Shown: positions 53,642 to 60,088 of the stretch, piece after piece | How the letters are laid out: every line of letters begins with the position of its first letter | Position numbering within the stretch: the stretch's first letter is position 1 | Assembly (NCBI GenBank): GCA_947175495.1 | Contig: CAMWNB010000004.1 | Span: forward strand, 1 to 64,000 | DNA length: 64,000 nt | Reading direction: 5' to 3' | Origin: an uncultured Porphyromonadaceae bacterium | GTDB lineage: Bacteria > Bacteroidota > Bacteroidia > Bacteroidales > Muribaculaceae | Notes under the pieces: model-generated | What the model saw: the letters and a program-made list of their open reading frames with translations, nothing else | What the model was told of the DNA's origin: nothing | Databases searched by the model: none | Program-made: the position numbers and the translations under genes

Positions 53642-55099
53642 TTGAATAGCATATTGTTTCCAAGCTCCGGCCGGCTGCAGCGCCCGTCGCTCGCCGTTTC
53701 AGCCCTCCCCATAGTATTCCTGCTGCTGATGCTCATTGGCATCATCGTGTGCGGCAGCGCCGATCTCATCAACACCTACAGCCCTGCCATCCTGCTGTCG
53801 GCCACGGCTCTGTGTCTGATTCTCGGACGCATAAGCCGCAGTTACTCTCCGCGCTCGCTCGCGACAGGCATCCGACGCAGCGCCACGCAGATTCTCCCCG
53901 CGGTGCCCATGCTGCTTTTCATCAGCATGGTGGCCACCACATGGATGCTCAGCGGGGTAGTGCCGACGCTCATCCGCTACGGCCTGCTCATCATCAATCC
54001 CACCTATTTTCTGGCCATAGCATGCGCCGTGTGCGCAGCCGTGTCGGTGCTCACCGGCAGCTCATGGAGCACCATCGCCACCATCGGCGTGGCCTTTATG
54101 GGCATCGGCACCGTGCTCGGCTACTCCGAGGCGTGGATTGCGGGAGCCATCATCTCCGGCGCCTATTTCGGCGACAAGATGTCGCCGCTCAGCGACACCA
54201 CCGTAGTGGCATCGTCGGCCTGCGGCGTCGACCTTTTCAAGCACATCCGCTACATGATGCTCACCTCGGCTCCGGCCATGGCTGTGGCTCTCATGGTATA
54301 TGCAGTCGTGGGACTTTTCATCGGCAACGGCGCACAGGCTTCCGCCGAGGATATGATACACAGCCTGCAGACCACATTCAACATCACCCCCTGGACACTT
54401 GTCATCCCGGCCATCACCGTGACGCTGCTTCTGCTTCGCGTGCCCACGCTTTGGGTGCTCGCTGCAAGCGCCACAGCCGGTGCCGCCGGCATATTCATCT
54501 TCCAGCCCGATCTGTTGCCCGAGCTTGAGCAAGGCATCTCCGCCCTCCCCCGCATCCTCTGGAGCGAGACTACTCTGCACACCGGCTCCGAGCTGCTCGA
54601 CTCGCTGGCCGCCACATCGGGCATCACCGGCATGCTGCCCACCATCGCCCTCGTTCTCAGCGCCATGACCTTCGGCGCCGCCATGCTCGGCACCGGCATG
54701 ATAGCCACCATCACCCGCGCCATCACCCGACGCCTCACCCGACGCAGCTCCATCGTGGGCACCACCGTGGCCAGCGGCCTTTTCCTCAATTCCTGCACCG
54801 CCGACCAATATCTGTCGCTCATCATCGGCGGCAACATGTATCGCAACGTCTACCGCCGCGCAGGTTTCGAGCCACGCCTGCTCAGCCGCACCATGGAGGA
54901 CAGCGTCAGCGTCACCTCTGTGCTCATCCCGTGGAATTCCTGCGGTGTCACTCAGAGCGCCGTGCTCGGCGTCGCCACCATTGCTTACCTCCCCTGCTGC
55001 ATCTTCAACCTCATGTCGCCTGTCATGTCGATTGTCCTCGCCATGACAGGATTCAAAATCCGCTCTACACGGCGTGTGCACGTGCCGGCAACCGCCTGA
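53642..55099 (+). CDS. nhaC: Na+/H+ antiporter NhaC family
   Basis: GSSWSTIATIGVAFMGIGTVLGYSEAWIAGAIISGAYFGDKMSPLSDTTVVASS; NSCTADQYLSLIIGG. Confidence 0.93.
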   Translation: MNSILFPSSGRLQRPSLAVSALPIVFLLLMLIGIIVCGSADLINTYSPAILLSATALCLILGRISRSYSPRSLATGIRRSATQILPAVPMLLFISMVATTWMLSGVVPTLIRYGLLIINPTYFLAIACAVCAAVSVLTGSSWSTIATIGVAFMGIGTVLGYSEAWIAGAIISGAYFGDKMSPLSDTTVVASSACGVDLFKHIRYMMLTSAPAMAVALMVYAVVGLFIGNGAQASAEDMIHSLQTTFNITPWTLVIPAITVTLLLLRVPTLWVLAASATAGAAGIFIFQPDLLPELEQGISALPRILWSETTLHTGSELLDSLAATSGITGMLPTIALVLSAMTFGAAMLGTGMIATITRAITRRLTRRSSIVGTTVASGLFLNSCTADQYLSLIIGGNMYRNVYRRAGFEPRLLSRTMEDSVSVTSVLIPWNSCGVTQSAVLGVATIAYLPCCIFNLMSPVMSIVLAMTGFKIRSTRRVHVPATA

Positions 55100-55109
55100 C
55101 TGACGCTCG

Positions 55110-55135
55110 GAAAAAGCAAATCCATTTGCTTTTTC
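55110..55135 (+). terminator. Hairpin inside repeat unit 1 (GAAAAAGCAAAT-CC-ATTTGCTTTTTC), recurring at +73 and +146
   Basis: Perfect 12-nt inverted repeat with T-rich 3' arm one unit downstream of nhaC stop. Confidence 0.65.
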
Positions 55136-55270
55136 TCTCGACTTATTCGTAACTTTGGCTGCGCCTTAGTTACTGACGCTCGGAAAAAGCAAATCCATTT
55201 GCTTTTTCTCTCGACTTATTCGTAACTTTGGCTGCGCCTTAGTTACTGGCGCTCGGAAAAAGCAAATCCA

Positions 55271-55303
55271 TTTGCTTTTTCTCTCGACTTATTCGTAACT
55301 TTG
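55271..55303 (+). promoter_or_regulatory. Promoter in repeat copy 3 (TTTG-N21-TAACTTTG), repeated at -73 and -146
   Basis: In copy 1: TTTG 55125-55128 and TAACTTTG 55150-55157; same spacing in the other copies; copy 3 lies 4 nt from the ATG at 55308. Confidence 0.65.
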
Positions 55304-55307
55304 CGTT

Positions 55308-57038
55308 ATGATACACGCATGCCGCACTTTCCTGCTACGCCATGCCGCCACGGCGTGGTGGCTCGTGTGCGCTGTCGCTCTGCTGGCCACTACATGGCAT
55401 TTCTACGTCGACATGGGCGTTGCGGCCAACTGTTCGGGACGCGAGTTTTATCTCAAACCTGCAGCGGACGTCCTTGTACTGCTCCTTCCCTACTGGATTT
55501 TGCCGCCACGCCGGCGTGGCTCCATTCTCATACCGCTGTGGGGCCTGTCGGTGCTCTACTTCACCGATGCCGTGTACAGGCGCTTCACCTCGGAGTGTAT
55601 GCCGCTGAGCCTTCTTATGCAGGTGTCCAACGTCGACACTCCGCTCCTCGACAGCGCTTTCTCGCTGCTGCGCAAGGCCGACATCATCTATCTTTTCTGG
55701 CCTGTCATGGCCACGGCAGCATGGTGCATACGCTCCATCCGGCGCGCTGTCTGCTCCGCCACCATCCATTGGTCGGTGCGCGCGGCCGCCGCTGTTGTCA
55801 CAGCTATCATTTTCTGGAAATCCCAGGTGTATTTCTCGCGTGCCTACAGCCAGGTGTGGCACTTCTTCAACGGCAGCCGCATGTCGGTGGCCGAGGCCAC
55901 ATGGAGACGCACCGTCGACAGAAGCGCCGAGGCCCGCTGCGACCACTCCTTTGCGCTCTACAACTCCGGCGTGGCCGTCTACATCATCACTGAACTGTGG
56001 GACACTCTCACCTATCAGAACGCCATCGCCCTCACAGCCGGTGAACGCGCCGGCTTCGATGCATATCTGCGGCGCGACGCCGCATGCGACAGCCTCCCGC
56101 AGCGCCACAAAAACATCGTGTTCGTCGTCGTGGAGTCACTCAACGCCGAGGCCGTCGGCACGCACGTCGGCCCGGAGCCCGTCACACCCGTGCTCGACTC
56201 GCTCATCAAGGCTTCCGGCACCATCAGCAGCCTCAACATGGTGCCGCAGGTGGGCGACGGCATTTCGTCCGACGGGCAGCTCATCTACAACCTCGGCACG
56301 CTGCCGCTGCTCGACGGAGCAGCCACGCAGAGCGCCATCTACGGCAAGCGCCTTCCGACCCTTCCGGCCGCCCTCGCAGCCACCCACTATCCTGTAGCCA
56401 TATTCGCCGACAGAGGTCTGGGATGGAAAAAGCGCGAGGCATACCCTGCCTACGGCTACCGCCGCGTGCTCACCAGCGACAGCGTAGCCACACGCTTCGA
56501 CCTCAGAGCCATGGGCGCCGACGACGCCACCATGCGCTATGCCGTCAGCCTTCTGCCCGAGTTTCCGCAACCGTTTCTGCTGCAGATTCTCACCATTTCC
56601 ACCCATTACGCATTCGGCGAACGTGCGGCCACCGACTTCAGCGGCGGCGACATCAGCGGCATCGAACGCGACTATCTGCGCTGCGTGCGCTATGCCGACG
56701 CTTCCATCGGCCGCCTTATCGACGGCCTTCGCAACCAGGGGCTGCTTGACAGCACAATGCTAATTATCGCCTCCGACCATCACATGAACATGGACAGCGG
56801 CCTCTCTCCCGCACGCCCCATCGTGTTCATCGCCGCCAACTGCGGCCACACGGAGCACATCGAAGAGCCGGTGCATCAGGCCGACGTGTTCCCCACCGTG
56901 CTCGACCTGCTGGGCGTACACTCAGCGTGGCGCGGAGTTGGCCACTCCATGCTCGGCCCTCGCCGCGGCGACTCCGACCCGCGCCAGGCCACCGTCAGCG
57001 ACTCCGTCCTCCGCTCCGACTATTTCCCCCTGCAATAA
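55308..57038 (+). CDS. LtaS/phosphoethanolamine-transferase-like sulfatase-family membrane protein
   Basis: N-terminal TM helices; NIVFVVVESLNAEAVG; LLIIASDHHMN-like (TMLIIASDHHMNMDSG). Confidence 0.88.
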   Translation: MIHACRTFLLRHAATAWWLVCAVALLATTWHFYVDMGVAANCSGREFYLKPAADVLVLLLPYWILPPRRRGSILIPLWGLSVLYFTDAVYRRFTSECMPLSLLMQVSNVDTPLLDSAFSLLRKADIIYLFWPVMATAAWCIRSIRRAVCSATIHWSVRAAAAVVTAIIFWKSQVYFSRAYSQVWHFFNGSRMSVAEATWRRTVDRSAEARCDHSFALYNSGVAVYIITELWDTLTYQNAIALTAGERAGFDAYLRRDAACDSLPQRHKNIVFVVVESLNAEAVGTHVGPEPVTPVLDSLIKASGTISSLNMVPQVGDGISSDGQLIYNLGTLPLLDGAATQSAIYGKRLPTLPAALAATHYPVAIFADRGLGWKKREAYPAYGYRRVLTSDSVATRFDLRAMGADDATMRYAVSLLPEFPQPFLLQILTISTHYAFGERAATDFSGGDISGIERDYLRCVRYADASIGRLIDGLRNQGLLDSTMLIIASDHHMNMDSGLSPARPIVFIAANCGHTEHIEEPVHQADVFPTVLDLLGVHSAWRGVGHSMLGPRRGDSDPRQATVSDSVLRSDYFPLQ

Positions 57039-57112: not shown

Positions 57113-60088
57113 TCAGATGATGGCTTTGTAGACCTGGCGGAAGAGCTCGGGACGGATGTTAAGCTCGTTGAACGCCGCGTTGTCGCGGGTAGGGTTCACG
57201 CGGTTGGTAAGGAAAACGAATATTATATCCTCGTCGGGGTCCACCCAGAACACCGTGCCGGTGAAGCCGAGGTGGCCGTAGACCGAGGCGTTCGCCTCGT
57301 CGCATGTGGGCGAATATTCGGGATTTTCCTTGTCCGGCTTGTCGAAGCCGAGACCGCGGCGGCATGTCGGGCTTTTCGATTTGGTGAACAGATCCACAGT
57401 GGCCTGCGAAAGCACACGCTTGTCGCCGTATTCGCCGCCGTTGAGCCACATCTGGCACACCTTGGCAAGGTCCTCCGCGCAGGCAAACACACCGGCGTTG
57501 CCGCTGACGCCGCCCAGCATGGCGGCAGTCTCGTCGTGCACATATCCGTGCACCATCTGGCGGCGCAGGAATGCGTCGTCCTCGGTCGGCGCGATCTTGT
57601 CGAGCGGATGTTTGCCCATGGGGCGGTAGCAGGCGGTGTAGGCTCCCAGGGGAGCCCAGATGCTGTCGGTCATGAAACGGTCGTGAGGCTGCCCGGTGAG
57701 GCGCTGCTCCATGTCCATGAGCAGACAGAAGTTAAGACACGAGTAGGCGTACTTTTTGTTGGGGCGCAGAGTCGACGTGTAGATGCGGTGCATCAGCGTG
57801 TCGATGGTGACCTGGCCCACATACAGTCCTTTAGCGGCCTCTATGTTGAAAGCGCCGCCGGGGTGCGTCGAAGTGATGTCGGTGCGCAGGCGGGCCGAGT
57901 TGTTGCCGTAGGTGTTGCGTTGCACAAAAATTTTGTGGTCGGCGTCGGGGCGCGCGGTGAACAGACGGCCCTTGTAGCTTGCGGTGTCGAACATCGCATC
58001 ATGAACGGCCAGCGAGGGGCGGATGCCCGACTCATGGTACAGCAGCTGCTGCACGGTCACGTCGTTCTTGTCGGTCTTGCGCAGGCCGGGGATGTGGTCG
58101 GCGGCAAGGTCGGAGAGTTCGAAGAGGCCGAGGTCGTAGGCTTTCATCACGCCCGGCAGCGTGCCGATGGCTTTCGACACGGAGGCAAGGTCGTAGACGG
58201 TGGAGGGGGTGACGGCCGGGCCGCCTTTGGTGGTGTGGCCGTAGCTGCGGCTGAACACCACGTCGCCGCCGCGGGCCACGAGCACCTGGCAGCCGGGGAA
58301 AGCGCCTGTGCGCAGACCCACGCCCACGATGGAGTCAATGCTGTCGGCGAGCGACGCGCGCAGGCCGCGGGCCTCGGGCACGGTGTAGCCCAGACGCGTC
58401 TTGCGCAGGCGAAGGCCGGTGCCCTTGTCAAACAGGCCTTTCAGCCCCACGGGCAGCGTGCCGTCCACGTTGATGCCGCCGAACACAGCCTGTGCGGCAT
58501 ATTCACGCGTCAGAGGCGTGTCGTCATAGGCCAGCAGCACTGCCGCAGCACTCTTTATGGCGGCGTCGAAGCGGGCCATGCGGTAGGGGTTGACGAAGAA
58601 CACCTCCACCAGGCCGTCGCAGCCGCGCAGCATGGCGGCGGCTTCACGCGCCCAGGACTTGTCGGAGAACACGCCCATCACCACCACATCGTGCTTGCGG
58701 ATGGCCGCGCCGGTGGCGGCCGTCATGTGGCGTGCCTCGGTGACGGAATAACGGTCGACCTTGGCATAGCGCGAGCACAGTTCGGCAAATTCGTTGTCGG
58801 CTTCGGCGCCGATGCTCACCACAGCCACCGACGTCTTGTCCAGATTGCCCAGAGGCAGAATGTTGCCATTGTTGCGCAGCAGCGTCATGGTGGCGGCAGT
58901 GACAAGACGGTTCACGCGGTCGGCCTGCGGCGAGTTGATCTGTGCGCTCAGTTTCTTGATGTCGGAGGATACGGGGCGCAGACGGTCAAGGCCGAGAATA
59001 TATTTGTAGCGGAGCACGCGCTTGCAGGCGGTCTCTATCACGGAAGCCTTGATGCGGCCGGAGTTGACGGCGGCCACCACGGCATCGATGTCGCTGACGG
59101 TGTTGACACCCGACAGCAGCACGTCGGCACCGGCCTGCACGGCCATGATGCAATTGTTCTTGCCCGCCACCTGCGCGCCCTTCATGTCGAGGGCGTCGGT
59201 GTAGACAAGACCTTCAAAGCCGAGCTCGTCGCGGAGCATGCCTGTGGTGATTTTGTGCGAAAGCGATGCAGGGGTGCCGGAAGCATCCACCGAGGGCACT
59301 GAAAGATGGCCCACCATCACACCGGAGCATCCTGCGCCCACATACTTGCGGAACGGTGCGACATCCACGCTGTCGAGCAGCGCACGGCTGTGGTTCACCT
59401 GTGTGAACGTCTTGTGCGAGTCGGTGGAGGTGTCGCCATGGCCGGGGAAATGCTTGGCCACAGCCTGCACGCCGCCGTCCTCCAGACCCTGGGCATAGGC
59501 CACGCCCAGACGGGCCACCCGGCCGGCATCCTCGCCGAACGAGCGCTGGCCGATTACGGGATTGGACGGATTGGAATTCACATCGAGCACGGGAGCGAAA
59601 TTCACCTGTATGCCCATAAGGCGGCATTCGCGCGCCATCTCGCGGCCATACTGGTAGAGCAGGCGCTCGTCGCGCACGGCTCCGAGGCCCATGTTGCGAG
59701 GAAAGCGCGGAGTGTTCTTGATGCGCATGGAGAGGCCCCACTCGCCGTCGAAGGTCATGAGCAGAGGCACACGGGCCAGTTCCTGGGCGTAATTGGTGAC
59801 AGACGCGTACTGCTCGATGGTGCCTTCGCTGAAGAGCAGACCTCCCACTCCGGCATCGACATAGCGCTTGGCGGCCTGACGGGCGTCGGCACGCCGCGGG
59901 TCGATTTTCGGACAGAAAAGCTGCGCCACGCGCTGGCGCTCGCTGAGAGAGTTGTACACCGAGTCGACCCACCGCTCGCATGCGCGGGTGTCGGCTTTGG
60001 CCACCATCGTGGGCCTCACGGCCACGGCAGCCAATGCGGCCACGGCAAAAGCCATGGCCGGAAGGATGAATTTCAGAGGGTATTTCAT
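57113..60088 (-). CDS. GH3 beta-N-acetylhexosaminidase fused to a serine beta-lactamase-type domain
   Basis: GH3: AVAKHFPGHGDTSTDSHKT; beta-lactamase-like: YDLASVSKAIGTLPG (SxxK), GHLGFTGTVFWVDP (HxG). Confidence 0.93.
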   Translation of the reverse strand: MKYPLKFILPAMAFAVAALAAVAVRPTMVAKADTRACERWVDSVYNSLSERQRVAQLFCPKIDPRRADARQAAKRYVDAGVGGLLFSEGTIEQYASVTNYAQELARVPLLMTFDGEWGLSMRIKNTPRFPRNMGLGAVRDERLLYQYGREMARECRLMGIQVNFAPVLDVNSNPSNPVIGQRSFGEDAGRVARLGVAYAQGLEDGGVQAVAKHFPGHGDTSTDSHKTFTQVNHSRALLDSVDVAPFRKYVGAGCSGVMVGHLSVPSVDASGTPASLSHKITTGMLRDELGFEGLVYTDALDMKGAQVAGKNNCIMAVQAGADVLLSGVNTVSDIDAVVAAVNSGRIKASVIETACKRVLRYKYILGLDRLRPVSSDIKKLSAQINSPQADRVNRLVTAATMTLLRNNGNILPLGNLDKTSVAVVSIGAEADNEFAELCSRYAKVDRYSVTEARHMTAATGAAIRKHDVVVMGVFSDKSWAREAAAMLRGCDGLVEVFFVNPYRMARFDAAIKSAAAVLLAYDDTPLTREYAAQAVFGGINVDGTLPVGLKGLFDKGTGLRLRKTRLGYTVPEARGLRASLADSIDSIVGVGLRTGAFPGCQVLVARGGDVVFSRSYGHTTKGGPAVTPSTVYDLASVSKAIGTLPGVMKAYDLGLFELSDLAADHIPGLRKTDKNDVTVQQLLYHESGIRPSLAVHDAMFDTASYKGRLFTARPDADHKIFVQRNTYGNNSARLRTDITSTHPGGAFNIEAAKGLYVGQVTIDTLMHRIYTSTLRPNKKYAYSCLNFCLLMDMEQRLTGQPHDRFMTDSIWAPLGAYTACYRPMGKHPLDKIAPTEDDAFLRRQMVHGYVHDETAAMLGGVSGNAGVFACAEDLAKVCQMWLNGGEYGDKRVLSQATVDLFTKSKSPTCRRGLGFDKPDKENPEYSPTCDEANASVYGHLGFTGTVFWVDPDEDIIFVFLTNRVNPTRDNAAFNELNIRPELFRQVYKAII

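Follow-up and report, generated by a model that had tools for sequence, protein, structure and literature searches.

The gap between an NhaC-type antiporter gene and a sulfatase-superfamily gene in the window (the whole 64,000-nt stretch of DNA that was analysed) holds a 73-bp tandem array at positions 55100-55303. The array was confirmed as real, and the family to which it belongs is probably an unusual promoter-targeting repeat and not a terminator. On balance the array probably marks one place occupied by a REP/MITE-like palindrome of the Bacteroidales, mobile or mobilised, which settles on -7 boxes and restores the promoter there. Sequence comparisons documented the dispersal of the unit, a double palindrome with covariation and lineage-specific variants common to several sites; they also showed that the arrays stand exactly in the register of the native promoters, that the leaders are left intact and that the upstream boxes decay.

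Anatomy of the array and its unit

TRF reported a repeat at 55099-55303 with period 73, 2.8 copies, 99% matches and a score of 403. As a single-stranded RNA the array gave a folding z-score of -8.3 against shuffles and, given this value and the 99% identity over 204 nt, it was judged to lie beyond chance. The following features were assigned in and around it.

53642-55099 (+): upstream gene, Na+/H+ antiporter family (NhaC-type)
55100-55303 (+): whole array, 2.8 copies of the 73-bp unit, promoter side toward the downstream gene (direct reading and TRF)
55110-55135 (+): palindrome HP1, copy 1, with the -33 TTTG (55125-55128) in its 3' arm
55137-55149 (+): conserved block B (CTCGACTTATTCG), copy 1, between -33 and -7; family-specific, near-absent in array-less congeners
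55149-55173 (+): palindrome HP2, copy 1, which covers the -7 box and runs into the next spacer; between sites its arms covary
55150-55157 (+): -7 box TAACTTTG, copy 1
55176-55183 (+): conserved block A (ACGCTCGG), copy 2; one base covaries (pairing) with block B
55183-55208 (+): palindrome HP1, copy 2, with the -33 TTTG at 55198-55201
55222-55246 (+): palindrome HP2, copy 2
55223-55230 (+): -7 box TAACTTTG, copy 2
55256-55281 (+): palindrome HP1, copy 3, with the -33 TTTG at 55271-55274
55296-55303 (+): last -7 box of the array (TAACTTTG), in the register that the native promoter has in G007, an array-less relative
55308-57038 (+): downstream gene, 576-aa sulfatase-superfamily protein (Pfam Sulfatase)

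The nhaC stop codon occupies 55097-55099 and the array begins at the very next base; at the other end, 4 nt separate the last TTTG from the ATG at 55308. All three copies contain HP1 as GAAAAAGCAAAT-CC-ATTTGCTTTTTC (12-bp arms, 2-nt loop), and in each the box TAACTTTG has a TTTG 21 nt upstream, within the 3' arm of HP1. Copies 1 and 2 were identical and copy 3 carried a single A-to-G change, located in the spacer; the geometry given in the first-pass annotation was recovered by direct reading. That annotation lacked the second palindrome, HP2 (GTAACTTTGGC-TGC-GCCTTAGTTAC), which is present at each internal -7 box. The spacer between promoters resembles an inverted, degenerate copy of the promoter, and the array therefore matches itself on the opposite strand. 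Elsewhere in the window, a short 12-bp tandem repeat (CCATCACCCGACG, 3.1 copies) was noted within the nhaC coding sequence at 54708-54745, and 57113-60088 (-) encodes a 991-aa protein in which a glycoside hydrolase family 3 domain is fused to a beta-lactamase-family domain.

Across the order the unit layout was constant, [HP2 right arm]-TAC-TCnCGYTCGG-[HP1]-nCTCR-(A)CTTATTCG-TAnnTTTG, with unit lengths of 71-82 bp and hairpins that vary in sequence while their pairing is kept. These lengths were spread evenly over all three residues modulo 3, and a coding tandem repeat was ruled out. Promoters recognized by sigma-ABfr in the Bacteroidetes consist of TAnnTTTG with TTTG about 20 nt upstream (PMC7366714). 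The same -7/-33 pair, with TTTG 19-22 nt before TAnnTTTG, was found in 166 of 181 units (7.8 expected in shuffles), in agreement with the Bacteroidetes-type promoter that had been claimed for every unit, and each unit is a predicted sigma-ABfr-type promoter set within two palindromes. Ordinary promoters of the genus, by comparison, have neither the CTCGACTTATTCG block nor the two palindromes (an array-less ortholog has, for example, TTTTTCGTAACTTTGCA). With up to one mismatch allowed, the counts of CTTATTCGTANCTTTG were 19, 31, 41 and 31 in the four genomes with arrays that were compared and 1, 1 and 2 in three congeners that lack arrays; the unit motif is therefore not the ordinary promoter of the genus.

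Covariation was assessed on a structure-blind alignment. Shuffles gave 11.3 double-change cells where the alignment itself gave 45 (0 of 500), and sliding lowered the pairing from 93% to at most 44%. At HP2 position 4, which is an n of the -7 box, the pairs were T-A in 93, C-G in 48 and A-T in 23 of the 176 parsed units; the covarying pair of blocks A and B was C-G at 97 loci, T-A at 32, C-A at 18 and T-G at 2; and the left arm of HP1 contained an unpaired T in 110 cases among 181 units. These counts take no account of relatedness. Wobble pairs at HP2 position 5 and in blocks A/B leaned to the minus strand and those of HP1 to neither, and a reading of the strand of action from them was dropped on account of this conflict.

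Dispersal and position relative to genes

The claim that the unit forms a dispersed family of this lineage held when the genome and its relatives were searched. With the array sequence as query, about nine sites with different flanks were found in the window's own genome, which has about 10 in all, and a covariance model built from 41 units detected 22 units there. The same model found units in 14 of 49 congeneric genomes (up to 35 each) and none in the other 35. At least 117 loci were returned by a tandem-pattern search, from MAGs of Prevotella, Alistipes, Muribaculaceae and 'Bacteroidaceae' and from a small number of isolates; Prevotella aff. ruminicola Tc2-24 and Alistipes sp. CHKCI003, both named as isolates, have arrays. 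When the Bacteroidales were sampled evenly, matches were patchy and came from 22 of 294 genomes and 18 of 184 genera, which is a lower bound, the model being genus-specific. Records of phages, plasmids and viral contigs gave no family match and Rfam gave no family above the gathering score for the unit, by which a phage or plasmid vehicle and a known RNA family were ruled out; no such repeat family was found in the literature searched, the nearest being the BrickBuilt and REP papers discussed below.

The genome set comprised one genome per species, mostly MAGs. Arrays often lay at contig ends, and copy numbers are therefore underestimates; extreme ends of MAG contigs carried L017 (G019:C53), L020 (G020:C68), L263 (G020:C39) and L261 (G002:C28). 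Arrays of this kind probably interrupt assembly from short reads, and more copies may be present than were counted. One contig labelled Lachnospiraceae (L098, JAMPGZ010000017.1) carried a typical Bacteroidales array similar to Muribaculaceae loci and probably represents a mislabelled or misbinned MAG. Units from different sites were more similar within one genome (87.9%) than between genomes (80.6%; 0 of 2000 permutations), and some sites were retained across species with diverged hairpins.

An ORF start on the strand of the promoter followed within 250 nt in 139 of 149 arrays, and within 57 nt in about 123 of them. Arrays ended exactly on the TTTG of a -7 box, usually 4-57 nt short of the start codon. 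The downstream genes, assigned by eye from their N-termini, were unrelated and largely housekeeping (ftsY, phoH, trmD, prfA, dnaB, ychF, valS, argS, topA, transporters and lipoproteins); a regulon was ruled out by this diversity. In genome G021, two loci (L018 and L032) belong to a paralogous gene pair (MKISEYPLGIQSFR...) with near-identical starts, and the array lies at the same point in each.

Register with native promoters and decay of upstream copies

In G007, which is array-less and among the three nearest relatives, the syntenic nhaC-sulfatase gap is 38 nt and TAACTTCG lies 4 nt before the ATG. The junction there reads TGA-GGCTGCGGCAGTCTGCCGTTTTTTTCG-TAACTTCG-CGGC-ATG, and that of the window TGA-[array]-TAACTTTG-CGTT-ATG. 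Arrays at the PhoH and FtsY sites were likewise in register with the promoters of array-less orthologs. In both genomes compared at each of three further sites, the BioA site read TTTG-CGGT-ATG although only a single unit is present there, the NeuC site TATATTTG-CACAT(T/C)-ATG and the glycosyltransferase site TATATTTG-CG. At 6 of 9 sites in G000 the -7 box was of the same variant as in one or more near relatives (17 of 1260 permutations, p = 0.013), including both TATATTTG sites of that genome.

At the prfA site of G000 the left flank aligned with array-less G008 through the native -7 box, whose form in G000 is the decayed CATCTTCG. Next come two units, after which the leader restarts at CACAAA. 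The alignment places this array between the old native promoter and an intact leader. As regards a target-site duplication of the MITE type, the insert is flanked by CGCATCTTCG, a decayed CGTATCTTTG, and by CGTATCTTTG, a sequence that the element itself also carries. Both junctions were clean at prfA only. At LptG and in the window no native box was seen to the left of the array, which suggests that it was lost or overwritten there.

Intact -7 boxes were found in the terminal copy of 157 of 168 arrays and in 175 of 230 upstream copies. Only the leftmost box was broken in 34 arrays and only the terminal box in none; the tandem-pattern search that supplied loci had required two intact copies, a requirement which is symmetric. 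The upstream copies therefore appear to be unselected as promoters, and the most natural reading of the sequences is that selection would act on the gene-proximal promoter only. At the NeuC site (L006/L440, G000:C51) the boxes read, from far to near, TATATCCG, TATATCCG, TATATCTG and TATATTTG. The TTTG of upstream boxes there had changed to TCCG, by which the promoter was destroyed and HP2 pairing improved, and this change looks like a palindrome correction.

Origin of the arrays and comparison with known systems

According to the favoured reading, the element would settle at the -7 box of a native sigma-ABfr promoter and supply its own -33, spacer and -7, such that transcription of the host gene could continue in the same register, presumably from the terminal copy, with the leader untouched. 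Each insertion would recreate its target, so that more units could be added at the gene-proximal end and tandem arrays would result; older upstream copies and the native box would then decay. Left array boundaries scatter and the right end is fixed, and a classical insertion with a fixed left end was ruled out by this scatter. If correct, this reading describes a class of repeat that targets core promoters and is rendered harmless by rebuilding them. It would also explain why housekeeping promoters turn over in gut Bacteroidales, and a further prediction is that strains differ in array length in ways missed by short-read MAGs. Test sites are offered by related species in which the promoter of a given gene is either empty or filled. 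Yeast retroelements, which target polymerase III promoters, are comparable in logic.

A serious rival, considered unlikely here, is spread by recombination, in which an ancestral promoter-palindrome unit would pass from promoter to promoter through gene conversion, homologous or driven by microhomology and anchored on the common TTCGTAnCTTTG, and arrays would be resized by slippage at the palindromes, with no transposition enzyme. Native promoters have TTCGTAnCTTTGCA in common with the right end of the unit, the fixed right and variable left ends are as one-sided homology predicts, sites are homogenised within a genome, and no transposase tracks the arrays. However, the local variant tends to persist in the terminal -7 together with a matching palindrome arm, which plain copying from a donor would not produce; the prfA site resembles an addition 3' of the native box; and the family is patchy across congeners. 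We infer that the units spread by insertion and not by gene conversion. Regulation in cis would account for the invariant blocks, the structural covariation and the retention of arrays at the promoters of orthologs in different species (ftsY, phoH, L264/L279); the blocks A/B and hairpins would either bind a trans-acting factor or act as RNA in the 5' leader, and arrays would be retained for their regulation of the downstream genes. This was nevertheless judged very unlikely: the genes downstream (ftsY, prfA, dnaB, phoH, trmD, tRNA synthetases, transporters) share no theme, most congeners manage without the element, and upstream copies decay.

The first-pass annotation had described cassettes of a terminator and a promoter, in which copy number could tune expression and which might yield ~70-nt RNAs. 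Its promoter and its dispersed family stand; the terminator and the dosage role are not supported, and the model as a whole is highly improbable. The T-rich 3' arm of HP1 and the three complete promoters in the window speak for it, but a terminator scan found no intrinsic terminator (a GC-rich stem followed by a U-tract) in the array, the tail being TCTCGACTTATTCG. Nor is the T-run of HP1 a family feature, since at other sites the arms are, for instance, CAAAGTCCAAAT/ATTTGGCTTTG. Genes upstream of arrays were co-directional in 36 cases and divergent in 39, hence without the bias expected of an insulator, and a terminator or insulator role was ruled out by the scan together with this lack of bias. 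Control of dosage by copy number finds no support in the upstream -7 boxes, which are not maintained.

Among known repeats, the BrickBuilt MITE of Porphyromonas gingivalis (PMC4596501) is likewise a dispersed intergenic repeat of the Bacteroidales; it too contains a tandem repeat and shows promoter activity. BrickBuilt has 23-bp repeats between a leader and a tail, inverted ends, distances of 49-591 nt from genes and promoters in both directions (PMC4596501), whereas the present family consists of 71-82 bp double palindromes with one outward promoter that end on the host -7 box. Terminal inverted repeats of the MITE type were not found in the unit, whose two ends (ACTGCGTC... and ...TATCTTTG) are not related by inversion. 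With REP/BIME/REPIN elements and their RAYT (TnpA-REP) proteins (PMC3733652, PMC3116915, PMC8266576) the family shares short structured palindromes dispersed in intergenic DNA, head-to-tail and inverted arrangements, lineage-specific variants, chromosomal location and high turnover. It differs from them in its fixed promoter register, its orientation toward genes and the lack of a tracking Y1 transposase. The REP tag GTAG or CGTC is absent from the palindrome end, where the invariant foot is GYTCG / CTC-R, and no RAYT gene was found flanked by or co-occurring with the repeats.

The ends of IS200/IS605 elements (PMC6006769) are similar in their order of target, left end, target-complementary arm, hairpin and target-like right end, and further in the unpaired T of most HP1 stems. 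In the units an arm pairs and covaries with the -7 box, a candidate counterpart of the guide that pairs with the target in those elements. Unlike IS200/IS605, the units contain no transposase gene and are tracked by no Y1 gene, and their target is an 8-nt promoter box. The hairpins may point to a single-strand intermediate. The left-end arm of HP2 (TTAGATAC, CGAATATAC, TTAGTTAC) might choose the target by base-pairing with the -7 box of the promoter that is entered, which we regard as quite unlikely; subfamilies with different arms would then enter promoters of the matching -7 variant, and the whole would amount to a guide-directed, promoter-specific, self-healing insertion system.

A Y1 HUH transposase acting in trans, as in IS200/IS605, did not accompany the arrays: Y1_Tnp genes do not track them, being absent from array-rich G002, G001 and G019, and none of 30 Y1 loci had a convincing unit within 1.5 kb. 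A Y1_Tnp/RAYT protein was accordingly ruled out as the mobilising enzyme, and the element, which works like those of the REP, MITE and IS200 types, was not filed as such. The array at the dnaB site (L209, G000:C24:16741-16971) has a Y1_Tnp-like gene (42 bits) roughly 3 kb away, around which no unit was found over 1.5 kb.
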